Source: Micromonospora sp. NBC_00421
GTDB lineage: Bacteria; Actinomycetota; Actinomycetes; Mycobacteriales; Micromonosporaceae
NCBI RefSeq assembly: GCF_036017915.1
Contig: NZ_CP107929.1
Coordinates: 682,001-746,000, forward strand
Length of the DNA stretch: 64,000 nucleotides
Reading direction: 5' to 3'
Positions 2,424 to 9,482 of this stretch are shown here, in pieces. How positions within the stretch are numbered: position 1 is the stretch's first letter; each line of letters starts with the position of its first letter. The position numbers were made by a program, and so were the translations under genes. The notes below the pieces were generated by a model, which saw only the letters and a list, made by a program, of their open reading frames with translations, was not told where the DNA came from and searched no databases.

Positions 2424-3356
2424 TCAGCTGCCAGTGCCGGTGATACGGATGCCGGCACCCGGCTCGGTGACGATCGGAACGGTCAGGCGACGCGCCCACA
2501 GATCCCAGCCGTCACGCTCCGGCCGGCGCATCGTCTGCACCTGGATGTTGTAGGCACCGGTCGCGTAGCCCGGGTCCTGGTTGACCTCGTCGGCCATGCC
2601 GCCGAGCTGCTTCGAATCGATGACCCACACGTCGTTCGACGGCAGGTTCGCGGCGCTGGTGTAGACGACCTTGAACTTGCCGACCCGGTCGATGTCACCG
2701 CCGTAGATCGGGTTGTCGGTGGCTTCCCGACGCCGCAGGTTCGCGATGATCGGGTCAGACATGAGCAGCGCGTACTTGCTGGTGGACATGAGCAGCAGGT
2801 CCGGGTTGTAGCCCATGTTCAGGTCGGTGATCTTCGCCGCCGCGACCTCGACGTCACGGAAGATCGACGCCGAGGCGTTGTCCCACGTGGCGGTCGCGGC
2901 CTGGGTGGCGGTGATCGCCGACGACACTGCCGCCGTCGACAGTCCCTCGATCTTGTTGGCGACGGTGTTGACGGCCTTCGTCAGCTGCCGGTCCACCTCG
3001 TCACCGGCGTACACGGATCGCTTGATCCGTTCGTCGCTGATGAAGAACGCCTCACCCCACTTGGTGACCGCAGCCAGTGCGGCGACACCCTGCGCGGGGG
3101 TGTCACGCGGGTACTCGGAGCCGGGGGCGACGGCCTTCACCGGCCGGGTGTTCAGGAACGGCTCCGACACCTCGTACATGACGGCCCCACCGGACGAGCG
3201 GAACCGCTGGGTGAGGATCTGGTCGGAGATGAACCGCAGGTCGGTGAGGTCCCGCAGCCGCCGGCCGATGAGGGTCGGGGACTGGAGGAACCGGGAGATG
3301 GTGACGAGTTCACCGGAGATGGTGGGGGCGGCCGGCGGGTAGCTCGGTCCGGGCAT
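2424..3356 (-). CDS. Major capsid protein (HK97 fold)
   Basis: The 310-residue product has the expected size and layout of an HK97-fold major capsid protein. An N-terminal arm is followed by an E-loop/spine region (ILTQRFRSSGGAVMYEVSE) and a P-domain helix (DEVDRQLTKAVNTVANKIEG). The A-domain includes YNPDLLLMSTSKYALL and the C-terminal strands WDLWARRLTVPIVTEPG. It lies downstream of the decoration protein and protease/scaffold genes, the usual head-gene order. A GAAGGGA ribosome site precedes the ATG. Assembly would form the icosahedral shell around packaged DNA. The family assignment rests on sequence pattern and context. Confidence 0.88.
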   Translation of the reverse strand: MPGPSYPPAAPTISGELVTISRFLQSPTLIGRRLRDLTDLRFISDQILTQRFRSSGGAVMYEVSEPFLNTRPVKAVAPGSEYPRDTPAQGVAALAAVTKWGEAFFISDERIKRSVYAGDEVDRQLTKAVNTVANKIEGLSTAAVSSAITATQAATATWDNASASIFRDVEVAAAKITDLNMGYNPDLLLMSTSKYALLMSDPIIANLRRREATDNPIYGGDIDRVGKFKVVYTSAANLPSNDVWVIDSKQLGGMADEVNQDPGYATGAYNIQVQTMRRPERDGWDLWARRLTVPIVTEPGAGIRITGTGS

Positions 3357-3495: not shown

Positions 3496-3855
3496 TCAGA
3501 TTTCCATCCACGTCACGGACGCACCGTCCGCAGCGGTGGTCAGCGCCACGCCGATGTTGGTGACCCCGGCCGTCGCCGATGCGACCGTGCCGGCGGCACC
3601 AGCGTCAACGCGGGCAGCGGCGGTGATCGCACCCGACGCGGTGGAGATGTGAGTGATGCCCCGAGCGAACACCGTGACCGAGCCGTTGGTGGCAGCATCG
3701 AAGGCTGCCACCCCGACGACCGCCGGGCTTGCGGCACCGGCGGGGGCGACGGTGCCGGAGCCGGAGACGGCAACGACCTGCCCACCGGTGATCGTCGCGG
3801 ACGCTTGGAGGGTGATCTCGTGACCGGGAACGTAATCCGGGGTGTAGTCGCCCAT
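3496..3855 (-). CDS. Capsid decoration protein (DUF2190-like)
   Basis: This is a 119-residue, Ala/Gly/Thr/Val-rich protein with short beta repeats (ASATITGGQVVAVSGSG, VVGVAAFDA, GSVTVFARGITHI). The pattern is typical of the DUF2190 family of phage capsid cement/decoration proteins. It starts 3 bp from the stop of the protease/scaffold gene, and AAGGAGG inside that gene's last codons serves as its ribosome site. Position immediately before the major capsid gene supports a role in stabilising the mature shell. Confidence 0.8.
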   Translation of the reverse strand: MGDYTPDYVPGHEITLQASATITGGQVVAVSGSGTVAPAGAASPAVVGVAAFDAATNGSVTVFARGITHISTASGAITAAARVDAGAAGTVASATAGVTNIGVALTTAADGASVTWMEI

Positions 3856-3857
3856 GG

Positions 3858-6131
3858 TTACGCCTCCTTGCTGAACGGGGTGGAGAACAGGCCGGCGATG
3901 TCGTCGGGCACGTCCACGGGGTTGGTGGTGTCGTCGCCGCCGGTGTAGCCGGACGCGGCCACCGGAACAGCGGTGTTGGGGGCGATCGACGCCAGGATCT
4001 CCGTGATGACCTCGGGGGCCCGGTCGTAGCGGGCCTCCCAGCCCTCACGGTCGGCCGGCTTCAGCTTCCCGGCCGCGACGGCACCGTCGAACAGGTTCTT
4101 CTTGGTGTCGGCGGCAGCGGAGGCGTTGATGCGGGCCAGCTCACCGGACAGGCGGGCGATCTCGGCCTTCATCTCGTCGTCGCGGGCCGCCGACGCGGCG
4201 ACCTGCTCCGGGTTGGGCTGCTCGTCGGCCTTCGTCTTGAGGGCGTCGAGCGCCGCCAGGATGGCGGTGTCGTCGGCGTCCTCGGTGAGGCCGAGCCGCG
4301 AGCGCACGTCGGTGCTCAGAGTGGACACAGGGTCCTCTCCCTTCGGGTCGGTGGATGGTGCGGTTTCCGGCTCGGCGGCCGGGGGTTCGGGGGCCGGTGC
4401 AGCGGCCGGTTCCGGGGGCGGTACCGGGTTCGGTTCACCGGCGGTCACCTCCGGGGTGTTGTCTCGCCCGGCGGGCAGGCTGTGCAGCGGCGTTACCGGC
4501 GGCGGGGCGGGGCGGGACTCGTCCCGGGACGCGTACACCGCCACCGACGCGGCGACCTGCTCTGCCGGCACGTAGTCGAGGGCCACCTTGCGGGGCTCCC
4601 CGAACGTCACCGTGTCCCCGTCGACCGTGACGGGCACTGCGAGGGTGGTCCGGTCGGTGTCGTCCATAACGATCACGTCGGAGGCGCGCACCTGCACGAT
4701 GTACTGCTGCACGGGTGCGGTTGCGTTCCAGGCGGCCTTGATCCGGTCCGCCGCGTCGGGCTGCGGGTTGGGCATGTCGGCTCCTTGTCCGGCGGAGGCG
4801 GTCTTCTTCTGGTTCGGCATGTGACCGAACACGTCGCGGTACCAAGCGGAGGTGACCCGCTTCGCCTTGACCGGGTCCATGAACTTCTTGAGGTAGGAGA
4901 AGAGGGCTCGCCACGGGTGCGGCTTGTCGCGCCACTTGGCCAGCCCTTCCGGGTCTTTCGTCCAGTACCGCTTGAGCCGGTTCTCGTCGCTGCCGTCTGC
5001 CGCCGCCACCATGCCGTCGTCGCGGGCGAAGGGGATGGAGTCGTACTGGTAGCTGTCATCGGTCGACGTGAGGGGAATGTCGGTGCGGTCACCGCCGAAC
5101 ACCACCCGCACCCGGTCGAATCGGATCGGCCCCACCCGGTCGGTAAGGGCTGCCAGCTTGGTGAGGTCATCGGTGTAGGCGAGCGTCAGATGCGCCACCC
5201 ACGGCTCGTGCTGCGCCGGTAGTTCCAGCAGGGTCTCGGCCTGCACATCACGGACGGTGGTCCGACACAGGTACTGCGCGTCGGCGACATATTCACCCGA
5301 CACGCCCAGGACAACGCAGGTGTCCCGGTCGGCGCGGCCAGGGTTGAACACGCTCAACGCGAACCCGTCCGCGTCCACCGGAGGGAAACCGGTGGTGGCG
5401 CGGCTGATGGCGTCGACCAGCCGGTTGCGTGCCTTGTCGGGAATCTGGGATGCCTCACCCAGGTACATGAGGGTGACGTGCAGTTCGTCGGCTGCTTCGC
5501 CGCCGTCAACGGCCAGCCGCGCGGCGTCGGCTTCGGTGGGAATGAGCGCCACCATCGCGCCCGTGTGCTGCGCGGGTTCGGCGGCGGTGATCCGGATGGA
5601 GATACGCACCTCCCCTTCCGGCGCGTCAGCGGAGGCGGCCAGCCCGTACAGGGCGCGCACGTCGGCGAGGGATTGCAGGCTGGTGAGGGTGCCGACACCG
5701 GGTCGGGTCACCCCGAGTAGGGCGACACCGTCCAGCACGAATGGGTGGGTGTGCCCGAGCTGGCAGCGCCGGTTGTACGCGCCCTCCACGGACCGGTCCG
5801 GGTAGGCGGACGCCATCACCTGATCCAGCCAGGCAGGCACCCCAACGTAGTCGCCGATGAGGGTGTGACCGCCGTCGACCAGACGCAGGTTCTCCACCCA
5901 GCCGATCGCAGGCTCACCGTCCCCGCCGTCGGTGGAGGCGCGGGGGGTGAACCGGCTGTCGGTGTGCCCGATCCACAGCACAGGCCGGCGGATCGCCGGG
6001 CACTGCTGGGCGGCAACAGCGGCGGCCAGGTCGGCGGGGGAGGCATCCCACCGCCCGGATGACAGCGCCCACGATCCAGCGCGCACCAGTTCCACACCGT
6101 CGCGGCGCACCAGTTTCACGGTGTCGGACAT
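3858..6131 (-). CDS. Capsid maturation protease/scaffold with 2H-phosphoesterase domain
   Basis: The protein has 757 residues. The ATG at 6131 (MSDTVKLVRRDG) is chosen because GGAGGG lies 7 bases upstream; the open frame extends further, but that part is an Arg/Pro-rich shadow. Residues ~1-160 resemble phage prohead protease regions (VLWIGHTDSRFTP, PDRSVEGAY). Residues ~193-350 carry two HxT motifs about 95 residues apart (H218-V-T220, H314-L-T316), the signature of the 2H/2'-5' RNA ligase-like phosphoesterases. Residues ~386-440 match a helical element common in actinophage head proteins (LKRYWTKDPEGLAKW). A Pro-rich linker leads to a charged, coiled C-terminal scaffold like Mu gpI. It precedes decoration and capsid genes. 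The role of the 2H domain is unknown. Confidence 0.83.
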   Translation of the reverse strand: MSDTVKLVRRDGVELVRAGSWALSSGRWDASPADLAAAVAAQQCPAIRRPVLWIGHTDSRFTPRASTDGGDGEPAIGWVENLRLVDGGHTLIGDYVGVPAWLDQVMASAYPDRSVEGAYNRRCQLGHTHPFVLDGVALLGVTRPGVGTLTSLQSLADVRALYGLAASADAPEGEVRISIRITAAEPAQHTGAMVALIPTEADAARLAVDGGEAADELHVTLMYLGEASQIPDKARNRLVDAISRATTGFPPVDADGFALSVFNPGRADRDTCVVLGVSGEYVADAQYLCRTTVRDVQAETLLELPAQHEPWVAHLTLAYTDDLTKLAALTDRVGPIRFDRVRVVFGGDRTDIPLTSTDDSYQYDSIPFARDDGMVAAADGSDENRLKRYWTKDPEGLAKWRDKPHPWRALFSYLKKFMDPVKAKRVTSAWYRDVFGHMPNQKKTASAGQGADMPNPQPDAADRIKAAWNATAPVQQYIVQVRASDVIVMDDTDRTTLAVPVTVDGDTVTFGEPRKVALDYVPAEQVAASVAVYASRDESRPAPPPVTPLHSLPAGRDNTPEVTAGEPNPVPPPEPAAAPAPEPPAAEPETAPSTDPKGEDPVSTLSTDVRSRLGLTEDADDTAILAALDALKTKADEQPNPEQVAASAARDDEMKAEIARLSGELARINASAAADTKKNLFDGAVAAGKLKPADREGWEARYDRAPEVITEILASIAPNTAVPVAASGYTGGDDTTNPVDVPDDIAGLFSTPFSKEA

Positions 6132-6667: not shown

Positions 6668-8662
6668 TCAGTCGATGGGGTGGAAGAAACCCCGGCACCT
6701 GTCGCGCCCGAGGCATGCCCGGTAGCGGCCGGTGGGGTAGTCGGCGAGGGCGTCGGCGATGCTGTCGTATTCGGTGCCGTCCACGGCGGTGCACGGTTCG
6801 CAGCGGTGCCGGTCGTTGACCTCCGTCGCCCGGAACCGGGTGCCCGCTGGTAGTTGGTAGAACACGACCTCGCGGCCGATGCCCTGCGCCGTGGTGGCCG
6901 CAGCAGCCAGGTTGCCGGCGACCAGGCCCGACGGTTTCGCCTGTGCAAGGTCGGTGAGCGCCGCGCGTACCGCACCTGCCACCTGCTCCGGGTTGGCATC
7001 GGCCCCTGTCTGCCCGAGAGCAGTACGGGCGGCAGCCGACGCGAACCCGGCCACGATCAGATCGGTGACGGCCTGCGCCTGCTGGCCGATCCGCTCCCGC
7101 GCCTCATCGGGCAGGTTCGCCGACAAACCGGGGCGGCCCGCCTCCCGAACCGCACCCGCCGCAGCAGACTCGGCCAGGGCGAGCATTCCCGCCGTCACCA
7201 CCCCGGCTAGGGCGGCAGCCACAGCAGGCGGCACCACCAAAGCACCAAGGCCAACAATCATCCCCGCAGCCAGCTCAGCGGACACCGCGTCGGCCATCGC
7301 GTCCACCAGCGGCGGGGATTCCTGCTCCCACCCTGCGGTCATGTCCTGCACCGCCTGCGCGTGCGCCGCATCCAGACCGGCAGCATCAGGTGCGGCGGCG
7401 GCAACCGTCGCCGGGCGCGGCGTGCCACCCCGTGCCGTCGGAGCCGGGGTCGGTGCACCCGTGCGCTCCGGCAGCCGGTACTCCCGCCGCACCCACGCCT
7501 CAAGCCCCGGATCAGCCGACAGGGCACCCGAGTTGAGCAGTAGTTGCAGTGATTCGGCGGTCACCTCACGGCGCGACCCGATCCCCGACACCACCACGCG
7601 GGGGACCGGTTCGTCCTCACCCCAGTTCCAGTCGACGATCCGCGCGGCAGCCTGCCGGGTGGCGGTGTCGGCGATGAACTCGCCTTCCGCCTCCAACGCC
7701 AGCGTCCACGAGTCGATGAACGCGGTGCCCAGCGCCCGCGATCCGGTCTCGCTGGTACCCAAGTCGAGGTGCCCCATCAGCACACTGGTGGCGATTTCCT
7801 GGTTGAGGAACCGGATGAAACCGAGGGTGTCCGGAACCGACCCCGACAGGCCGACGATCTTCACCGTGAACCCGGGGGGTGCGGCAACACCAGCTTGGTC
7901 ACCGGCGCGCGCCGCCGACATCATCTGCTGCGCCGCCTGCAACTGCGCCTGCGTCGGGTTCGTGCCCGGGGCGGCCTCCGCTACCGGAACCCCTGCACCC
8001 CACCGGCGGTTGGAGATCGCGGCAACCCGCATCATTTCCCGCTTCAACAGCCACGGGGCGTACGCCGGTCGGATCAGGGACGTGCCCTGCCAGGACGCAC
8101 CCTCCCGGTTTCGGGAGTAGAAGACGAGCCGGTCGGCGGGGATCTGCGGCGACCGCTGCCGGGTCGTCAACTGCTGATCAATGCCGAGCAGGGCACCCGT
8201 CTTCGGGTCGGCGTGAATCGCGGAGATCGTGGCCGGGATCCGCTCGGCTAGGGCCGTCAACCGGGCGCGACCATCCGCGCCGATCTCCGCCTGCATCTCG
8301 AACACGTAATGCCCGAACACCTCACTGAGCAGCGCCGACCGCAGGTGGTCGTTCCACGACACACCCCGACGGCGGGCACCCGACGGTCGGTCCACCCCGA
8401 CGACGTTGAGGCCGAGGCAGTCGGCAACCAGTTGGGTGACCTCCGGCCGGCACCCCGAGCCGTCCAACTGCCACTGGGCACGCCGCAGTTGCAGCCCATA
8501 CCCGTCGATGATCGCCGCCAGGCGCGAGTCCCGGCGCATCTCCGAGAACACTTGAACAGACGTCGGGTACCAAAGATCCGGAATATGCTCATAGACGTCG
8601 TTGACGATCGTCCCGTACTGGGTGTCATCGACCATGCCGAGCATGCGGGTGGGGGCAGTCAC
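6668..8662 (-). CDS. Portal protein fused to MuF-like minor head domain
   Basis: A GTG start (MTAPTRMLGMVDD) with GGGGGTGAG upstream gives 664 residues. The first ~400 match the DUF935/Mu gp29-like portal family: MRRDSRLAAIIDGYGLQLRRAQW, WNDHLRSALLSEVFGHYVFEM, REGASWQGTSLIRPAYAPWLLK and a tunnel-loop-like stretch ending FIDSWTLALEAEGEFIAD. After a Pro/Ala linker, the C-terminal ~200 residues are helical and end with a MuF-type motif (RHRCEPCTAVDGTEY ... CLGRDRCRGFFHP). The gene sits between the HNH/terminase genes and the protease, the usual head-gene order. The product would form the dodecameric DNA entry ring at one capsid vertex. Confidence 0.88.
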   Translation of the reverse strand: MTAPTRMLGMVDDTQYGTIVNDVYEHIPDLWYPTSVQVFSEMRRDSRLAAIIDGYGLQLRRAQWQLDGSGCRPEVTQLVADCLGLNVVGVDRPSGARRRGVSWNDHLRSALLSEVFGHYVFEMQAEIGADGRARLTALAERIPATISAIHADPKTGALLGIDQQLTTRQRSPQIPADRLVFYSRNREGASWQGTSLIRPAYAPWLLKREMMRVAAISNRRWGAGVPVAEAAPGTNPTQAQLQAAQQMMSAARAGDQAGVAAPPGFTVKIVGLSGSVPDTLGFIRFLNQEIATSVLMGHLDLGTSETGSRALGTAFIDSWTLALEAEGEFIADTATRQAAARIVDWNWGEDEPVPRVVVSGIGSRREVTAESLQLLLNSGALSADPGLEAWVRREYRLPERTGAPTPAPTARGGTPRPATVAAAAPDAAGLDAAHAQAVQDMTAGWEQESPPLVDAMADAVSAELAAGMIVGLGALVVPPAVAAALAGVVTAGMLALAESAAAGAVREAGRPGLSANLPDEARERIGQQAQAVTDLIVAGFASAAARTALGQTGADANPEQVAGAVRAALTDLAQAKPSGLVAGNLAAAATTAQGIGREVVFYQLPAGTRFRATEVNDRHRCEPCTAVDGTEYDSIADALADYPTGRYRACLGRDRCRGFFHPID

Positions 8663-8681
8663 GACTCACCCCCGGCGTCTG

Positions 8682-9392
8682 CTATTTCTCGTTCGCAGTT
8701 GCAGGGGAGCGCCAATCAAACGGACTGCTCAGGTAAGCCGATGCTCTACTCAGCCATCCCGGGCGTTCTATATGCCCTAGCCCGGTGTTGCAGGGTATGC
8801 AGAGCCAGCCACGAACCTTCCCAGACTCGTGGCAATGATCGATGCATTGACCTTGATTCGTCCGGCAAACCCAGCACAGGCCACCATAGCGACCGACCAT
8901 CTGCCGGAACTGGGGCTCGGTAATTCCGTATACGTCATACCGGACCCCGGCCCGCCGATCGGGAACACAAGTGTCGCAACGCTTCTGAACCCTGCTGCGC
9001 GGGGTGAAGGCGGCGCTACAATGCGTGCATGTCCAGGTCTTCGGCTTCGGGCGGCATTCAGCGCAGAGGCGCTGATTCCCGGACGCCGGAGTGTAGCCAA
9101 CGCCGCACTTCTTGCAAGACCTGCGGCGGTACTGCCCAGCCGAGCAGCCATGCACCTTCACGCTGCATGCCCTTGAGCAGGTGCCTTGGTTCGGATTCTT
9201 CCGGCTCGGGCGGAACATCCGCCCGCAGGCCGGACACTCGCGCTCCGGCGGGAGGCACGCCGATGAGCAGTAAGCGGCGGTGTGATGCTCGGCGATGAAT
9301 GACCTACCGCACTGCCGGCACGTCCGGTCGTAGGTGAACCCGGTCGACAAACGCCGCTGGCGGGGCGTGCCTCGTCGGGTAAGGTCTTCCAT
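8682..9392 (-). CDS. Endonuclease VII-type HNH endonuclease with zinc ribbons
   Basis: Start ATG 9392 (MEDLTRRGTPRQRRL) has GGGAG 7 bases upstream; product 236 residues. Four or five CxxC knuckles (C25/C28, C53/C56, C93/C96, C122/C125) precede a C-terminal endonuclease VII domain. Its visible ligands are C173xxC176, the catalytic D185-H-C-H188, and C198xxC201-N202. It interrupts the usual terminase-portal adjacency, has noticeably lower GC than its neighbours, and has its own promoter. This suggests a free-standing homing endonuclease that moved into the cluster. An alternative is a packaging-associated HNH protein that helps terminase, known in other phages. Confidence 0.85.
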   Translation of the reverse strand: MEDLTRRGTPRQRRLSTGFTYDRTCRQCGRSFIAEHHTAAYCSSACLPPERECPACGRMFRPSRKNPNQGTCSRACSVKVHGCSAGQYRRRSCKKCGVGYTPASGNQRLCAECRPKPKTWTCTHCSAAFTPRSRVQKRCDTCVPDRRAGVRYDVYGITEPQFRQMVGRYGGLCWVCRTNQGQCIDHCHESGKVRGWLCIPCNTGLGHIERPGWLSRASAYLSSPFDWRSPATANEK

Positions 9393-9420
9393 GTTGGCGC
9401 TCCCTGAAGCGTCGGCCGCA

Positions 9421-9460
9421 GCCCGGGGGTGTTCCAGCACCCGCCGGGCCTTTTCTTTAT
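9421..9460 (+). terminator. Rho-independent terminator on the plus strand
   Basis: GCCCGG (9421-9426) pairs with CCGGGC (9444-9449), and GGGTG (9427-9431) with CACCC (9438-9442), around a TTCCAG loop. TTTTCTTTAT follows at once. This is the best intrinsic terminator in the phage part of the window, yet it faces against the surrounding genes. It would stop antisense transcription entering the HNH promoter. On the minus strand the same stem lies at the 5' end of the HNH mRNA leader. Confidence 0.72.
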
Positions 9461-9482
9461 TGTCGCACTCACGCCAAGTCAA
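9454..9482 (-). promoter_or_regulatory. Promoter for the HNH gene
   Basis: On the minus strand, TTGACT (9482-9477), a 17-bp spacer and TAAAGA (9459-9454) form a good -35/-10 pair about 60 bp before the HNH start. Surrounding DNA is AT-richer than the rest of the late region. Independent transcription fits a mobile endonuclease gene. Confidence 0.6.

Follow-up and report, generated by a model that had tools for sequence, protein, structure and literature searches.

A predicted 2H phosphoesterase domain between the protease and scaffold regions of a putative prophage head protein in Micromonospora

A multidomain protein encoded among head genes

The window analysed here is a stretch of 64,000 nucleotides (positions 682,001 to 746,000 of contig NZ_CP107929.1) from Micromonospora sp. 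NBC_00421, whose genome comprises 7.23 Mb in one contig. On its minus strand, at 3858..6131, lies a gene encoding a 757-residue protein, P0001, in which Pfam and PHROG domain matches define, in order, a head maturation protease, a 2H phosphoesterase domain, a domain matching phrog_6439, a proline-rich linker and a scaffold. The ATG start codon at 6131 is preceded by a ribosome-binding site, GGGAGGG, at 6141-6135. A preliminary description of this DNA had placed a 2H domain between a capsid protease and a scaffold at these coordinates, which are correct, and the two flanking assignments agree with matches to phrog_3894 and phrog_2976; the phrog_6439 domain, which separates the 2H domain from the scaffold, had gone unmentioned. 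Judging from this domain content, P0001 is probably the precursor of a prophage head maturation protease and scaffold, although we place the likelihood slightly above even, a figure that applies jointly to this assignment and to the role proposed for the 2H domain below.

The Mu-I-type maturation protease domain spans residues 1-172 (5616..6131, minus strand) and matches phrog_3894 (E 2.6e-82, best stretch at residues 4-185). Residues H56 (5964-5966) and S114 (5790-5792) are invariant in 16/16 aligned rows, the window's own included, and presumably constitute the candidate catalytic pair of the protease. The scaffold region at residues 599-740 (3912..4337, minus strand) contains a long helix (641-686) and matches phrog_2976 at 577-737 (E 1.2e-18); a match to PF10123 (Mu-like_Pro) at 599-722 (E 2.9e-4, 20.9 bits) falls under the cutoff of 25.2. 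A scaffold preceded by a protease whose His and Ser are conserved is the arrangement of a Mu-I-type protease-scaffold, as which P0001 is classified from its sequence. Between the 2H domain and the proline-rich linker, the phrog_6439 domain (residues 375-445; 4797..5009, minus strand; E 3.2e-12) is helical and forms a second inserted module. It includes a stretch with the residues RYW and recurs in 109 phage records, on either side of 2H domains or in genes of other kinds; at least two of these records have it near the genome end.

The P0001 sequence has no match to PDB chains at E 1. A full-length AlphaFold2 model is weak overall, with a predicted local distance difference test score (pLDDT) of 67.3 and a predicted template modelling score of 0.32, and we therefore rely on it for the domain and linker layout only, in which folded blocks are split by low-confidence linkers (including segments 141-170, 183-188 and 374-382). 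When the PDB was searched with this model, 2H proteins were the sole clear matches.

The neighbours of P0001 on the minus strand are a Mu-type portal protein (6668..8662; PF06074, E 2.2e-46), a cement or head protein (3496..3855; PF09956, phrog_673) and a major capsid protein (2424..3356; PF25209 and phrog_1650, E 2.2e-73). The head module as a whole reads terminase, HNH endonuclease, Mu-type portal, small genes, P0001, cement/head protein, major capsid protein and connector, the endonuclease gene being of the recombination endonuclease VII type and located at 8682-9482 of the window, between terminase and portal. Tail-like genes are to the left of the window, including one for a tape-measure-like protein of 1379 residues (these translations were judged by eye), and replication genes are to the right. 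By its several domains and its linkage to head genes P0001 is a candidate virion-packaged polyvalent protein of a mobile element. A PADLOC scan of four proteins gave no match.

The 2H domain and its nearest relatives

The 2H domain occupies residues 176-372 (5016..5606, minus strand), with a confident core at about 188-355, and is delineated by PF13563, AlphaFold2 and PDB matches. PF13563 (2_5_RNA_ligase2) aligns to residues 201-333 with an E value of 6.2e-8 and 33.3 bits, over the cutoff of 27, and the PHROG family named 'RNA ligase', phrog_2659, aligns to residues 174-358 (E 9.4e-32). The AlphaFold2 model of the domain (pLDDT 92.4) has a LigT-like two-lobed fold in which both HxT motifs are predicted to lie on strands or at strand starts. 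Together with tblastn matches in phage records, these results put the proposed 2H fold above chance, and the comparison with Acb1 and ThpR that had been suggested at the outset returned a LigT-like prediction.

The motifs themselves are at the residues first reported for them, HVT at 218-220 (5472..5480, minus strand) and HLT at 314-316 (5184..5192, minus strand). H218, T220 and H314 are each present in 87/87 alignment rows and in 39/39 loci from named actinobacterial genomes, the latter being counted separately because the first HxT is part of one of the two patterns used to find viral loci. Degenerate histidines in relatives, named beforehand as an observation that would speak against the domain, were thus encountered in neither set. 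T316 is kept in 81/87 rows (five have Cys, one Ala) and in 18/39 loci (19 have Cys, one Ser and one Arg). The second motif is HxC in L002, L004-L006, L099 and 19 of the 39 loci L104-L142, and HxA in L013, with the His kept throughout; the HxC form is possibly a mechanistic variant, often in MuF-linked domains. The family matches, the conserved residues and the predicted fold support assignment of the domain to the LigT branch of the 2H phosphoesterase superfamily, and phosphodiesterase activity is predicted.

Two kinds of comparison bear on the substrate. Ranked by structure, LigT/ThpR, CPDase and human Usb1 stand above Acb1, and fungal Usb1 below it; target-normalised template modelling scores are alike, and the smaller size of Acb1 may explain part of the ranking gap. 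A profile of 81 2H sequences has no significant match to Acb1 (E 0.24 for 9q2g, 0.78 for 7t26 and 0.87 for 9q2y). The domain is also no ThpR by the equivalog model TIGR02258, scoring 21.7 bits (domain) and 17.9 bits (whole protein) against a cutoff of 65.7, and relative to LigT/ThpR and human Usb1 it is a phage branch found inside or beside head proteins. The structural and profile rankings lean towards RNA ends or RNA as substrates, those of Acb1 being less likely.

The 2H domain could be cargo that degrades cyclic oligonucleotide signals, either those of the cyclic oligonucleotide-based antiphage signalling system (CBASS) or those of type III CRISPR (clustered regularly interspaced short palindromic repeats); the preliminary description had raised CBASS, by analogy with Acb1. 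The two have features in common: Acb1 is a phage-encoded anti-CBASS nuclease with a 2H fold and an HxT/HxT tetrad (PMC9117128), it and the poxvirus cyclic GMP-AMP phosphodiesterase are among the fold matches, and in a relative of the same genus (G005) a CD-NTase match occurs alongside a 2H prophage gene. The rankings above weaken the analogy. The CD-NTase family PF18144 is present in 6/61 genomes searched and absent from the window's own, and CBASS thus looks uncommon around this host, as judged by this one marker. Neutralisation of CBASS is accordingly less well founded than proposed, and the general idea is already in print (PMC5512222); we regard signal-degrading cargo as an unlikely account of the domain.

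Carriers of the 2H domain and the junction motif

Our survey of 2H relatives extended over viral contigs, genome contigs, phage records and plasmid records, the viral loci being the best 80 of 416 stretches encoding 2H relatives. By tblastn, the 2H domain is found in 390/50,697 phage records; the protease is found in 154 of the 50,697, and 7/72,556 plasmids have the 2H domain. Although 532 phage records match P0001, none covers 80% of its length at a single place and the full architecture was not seen among them; divergent linkers reduce coverage, so that its absence from these records is not proven. Two phages are informative because they match both ends of P0001 and have no 2H domain between: in Guacamole (L016) the matching residues are 11-155 and 436-741, and in Mbo4 (L017) they are 7-205 and 450-734. 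The passenger is thus optional in this carrier family.

A first set of 94 2H open reading frames (86 distinct domains, L011 excluded), taken from stop to stop and hence longer than the genes, was sorted by carrier: 19 are Mu-I proteases, 42 a second head-protein type, four portals, one MuF alone, and 28 are separate. The last is an upper count, as it includes L032, in which another type of head maturation protease (phrog_94, phrog_133) is in frame with the 2H domain. Eighteen of the 28 overlap or are no more than 100 bases from a carrier reading frame, 25 are within 1.3 kb of one, and for three none was detected. The second carrier type (S78b) also takes in the reading frames matched by the seeds portalC and portalD, which are the same frames; it has no meaningful Pfam match and no PDB match, and its protease label derives from depositor names, the name of a composite PHROG family and a reading of conserved His and Ser residues. 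Among the named actinobacterial genomes, 36/39 2H loci encode a fusion with a head protein of the MuF, second or Mu-I type. At L063:3928-5679, a 2H domain is in frame with an endolysin-like stretch, and a Mu-I protease-scaffold with no 2H domain of its own follows 640 bases downstream.

An optional passenger located within or next to head proteins of several unrelated kinds is a pattern that suits cargo of the prohead, and we consider this conclusion supported by the sequences surveyed. Two other explanations make use of the same loci. The 2H domain could work late in the producing cell in RNA end processing, with head fusion setting only its dose or timing; KimmyK gp19 and other separate reading frames adjoin head genes without being fused to them, so that an unfused enzyme evidently suffices, but a plain late enzyme needs no fusion, let alone the recurrent fusion to several carrier types in the named genomes, and this explanation is rather unlikely. 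Alternatively, the domain could contribute to prohead structure or assembly, by providing bulk, binding RNA or clearing RNA from the head, with which both the frequency of head-protein fusions and the position in P0001 between protease and scaffold are compatible. Against such a role, the collinear relatives Guacamole and Mbo4 dispense with the domain, and its catalytic histidines are invariant where a filler would need none, making it improbable.

Further enzyme domains were found in frame by Pfam in 4/17 proteins, several of the 17 having been picked for length: ADP-ribosyltransferases in L045 and L066, a Nudix domain in L050 and topoisomerase IB in L052. The last is a protease-scaffold frame of 1806 residues (L052:2557-7974) with a topoisomerase IB catalytic core (E 2.4e-15) and a 2H domain between protease and scaffold. 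In Gordonia phage GMA6, a separate 2H gene is located between the portal gene and an annotated ADP-ribosyltransferase gene (L019:6764-7738, 7738-8853). ADP-ribosyltransferase companions, and the MuF-linked polymorphic toxins described for temperate phages (PMC5576092), are what could be expected if the 2H domain were a toxin-like RNase directed at competitors or new hosts; its predicted fold is nonetheless that of an end-processing enzyme and, no immunity gene having been searched for, we tentatively think a toxin very improbable.

In a quick tree of the 86 domains, 23 carrier changes are needed, compared with a shuffled mean of 39.0, although 37/83 inner branches are open; the well-supported branches force three changes for the second type, two for separate reading frames, and one each for Mu-I and portal carriers. 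Mu-I carriers account for four changes in 17 rows versus 15.7 when shuffled, and so the passenger has mostly been inherited with its carrier there.

If the 2H domain is released from its carrier, processing sites would be expected at its edges, and three candidates are present in P0001: LAAS at residues 164-167, after the protease (5631..5642, minus strand) and within the low-confidence segment 141-170; ITAAE at 181-185, before the 2H domain (5577..5591, minus strand), overlapping segment 183-188; and MVAAAD at 374-379, between the 2H and phrog_6439 domains (4995..5012, minus strand), in segment 374-382. The pattern used, [VIL][TVAQRSE]AA[AGSDE], was chosen after the flanks had been inspected, with 13 other patterns tried, and was then left unchanged. 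It occurs upstream of the 2H domain in 43/75 non-redundant proteins, versus 3.8 in shuffled sequences (maximum 10 in 1000 shuffles), and alanine-matched windows of other reading frames would give 5.0/74. In further flanks it occurs in 26/31 versus 1.65 shuffled (maximum 7); these are related loci, 35 of the 39 having domains not identical to any in the first set and 31 of those having enough upstream sequence. The pattern also follows the protease in 7/16 cases (1.1 expected) and precedes phrog_6439 in 13/36 (1.1 expected), mostly where a 2H domain is just upstream.

Related motifs appear in the capsid proteins that accompany second-type carriers. N-terminal extensions of capsid proteins are the part removed by HK97-type proteases. 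A second pattern, related to the junction pattern and chosen after capsid sequences had been inspected, is found 97 times across the N-terminal extensions of 44 such proteins versus 10.9 when shuffled, and nine times elsewhere in them. The delta domain of the Omega and LittleE capsid proteins is cleaved (PMC3706429). Two relatives' capsid proteins and the window's own have no match to PDB chains at E 0.01, and there is consequently no solved structure here showing a cleaved N-terminus. The conserved blocks L[VT]A[AS]GGWC and [VI]TA[AS].[DE][VI]PG precede the capsid core in second-type carriers, as at L013:11044-12747, and are possibly maturation sites. With a third, broader pattern, the linkers of the 19 Mu-I carriers have 57 occurrences versus 7.7 shuffled.

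Several observations weigh against processing and cargo delivery as we envisage them. The broader pattern is also enriched inside the protease (38 versus 2.8), the scaffold (28 versus 8.1) and the 2H domain (14 versus 5.8). The junction pattern is rare before the scaffold (3/17, 0.4 expected) and before phrog_6439 where no 2H domain is just upstream (3/16, 0.5 expected), and the window's own capsid protein, at 310 residues a short one, has no junction site at its N-terminus. A profile comparison of Mu-I with S78b carriers gave no similarity (probability 0.3%), so a common cleavage specificity is not a given, and the motif could instead have been inherited as the edge of the 2H domain. Exchange between carriers, beyond the existence of several carrier types, is weakly supported. 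Finally, in G005 the reading frame with the same 2H domain (protease-2H-phrog_6439, L007:1501-2811) stops and a scaffold-like gene starts in another frame (2835-3161), so that linkage of 2H domain and scaffold is not needed. Because the motif is also found inside domains, is co-inherited among relatives and is associated with dissimilar protease types, we refer to it as a candidate cleavage site.

A proposed role and its relation to known systems

The explanation we favour, again at little better than an even chance, is that the 2H domain is an RNA- or nucleotide-cutting cargo that is freed in the phage head and enters the next host by injection; this estimate overlaps with that for signal-degrading cargo, which is identical except for the substrate. 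The 2H domain and the small helical domain are passengers inserted between protease and scaffold, which together would bring the precursor into the prohead. There the protease may cleave at the [VIL]xAA[small/acidic] sites, pieces of the scaffold would exit or be degraded, and the 2H fragment of about 20 kDa would remain with the DNA and reach the next cell on infection. It would most likely act on RNA ends or RNA, by opening 2',3'-cyclic phosphates or by Usb1-like trimming, and less likely on cyclic signalling nucleotides.

A bolder extension, which we put forward tentatively and consider doubtful, is that the protease-scaffold is a self-cutting cargo loader, in which the same sites serve to trim the capsid and maturation frees enzymes into the virion, to be injected against host RNA damage or nucleotide immunity. 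If so, phages would load head enzymes by placing them within the very polypeptide responsible for head construction and cleavage, and the grammar of the junction sites would allow the injected cargo of actinophages to be predicted from their sequences. The motif could then expose injected effectors of actinobacterial phages that are now labelled RNA ligase, protease or hypothetical, and the choice of substrate, RNA ends or immune nucleotides, would become a simple biochemical test.

Searches of open PubMed Central papers listed nothing that we recognised as concerning the junction motif or a Mu-I protease-scaffold with an internal 2H domain. The arrangement is what is new, the type of phage cargo having already been predicted. 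Iyer et al. 2017 (PMC5512222) proposed that 2H domains of phages, where joined to MuF or to portal proteins, are RNases or degraders of signalling nucleotides and, in the portion of the paper concerned, state that such versions were never observed alongside RNA ligases. The polyvalent proteins described there resemble P0001 in that a 2H domain is fused to head-morphogenesis proteins and proposed to be a packaged effector; P0001 differs in that its carrier is a Mu-I-type protease-scaffold with candidate processing sites, neither of which is named for 2H domains in that portion (PMC5512222).

Actinophage head genes with the same 2H domain are also annotated as phrog_18402 or phrog_2659 and, in GenBank, as 'RNA ligase' or 'capsid maturation protease and MuF-like fusion protein'. 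These names are generic (RNA ligase, protease), and the annotated examples examined are other carriers or separate genes. T4 and P1 eject internal head proteins that have first been processed in the head or packaged into it. The same applies to the internal head proteins of SPN3US (PMC10052503, PMC7411985). P0001 is a proposed parallel to these systems, in which cargo is packaged, cut by the prohead protease and ejected, and it departs from them in that cargo and protease are parts of a single polypeptide.
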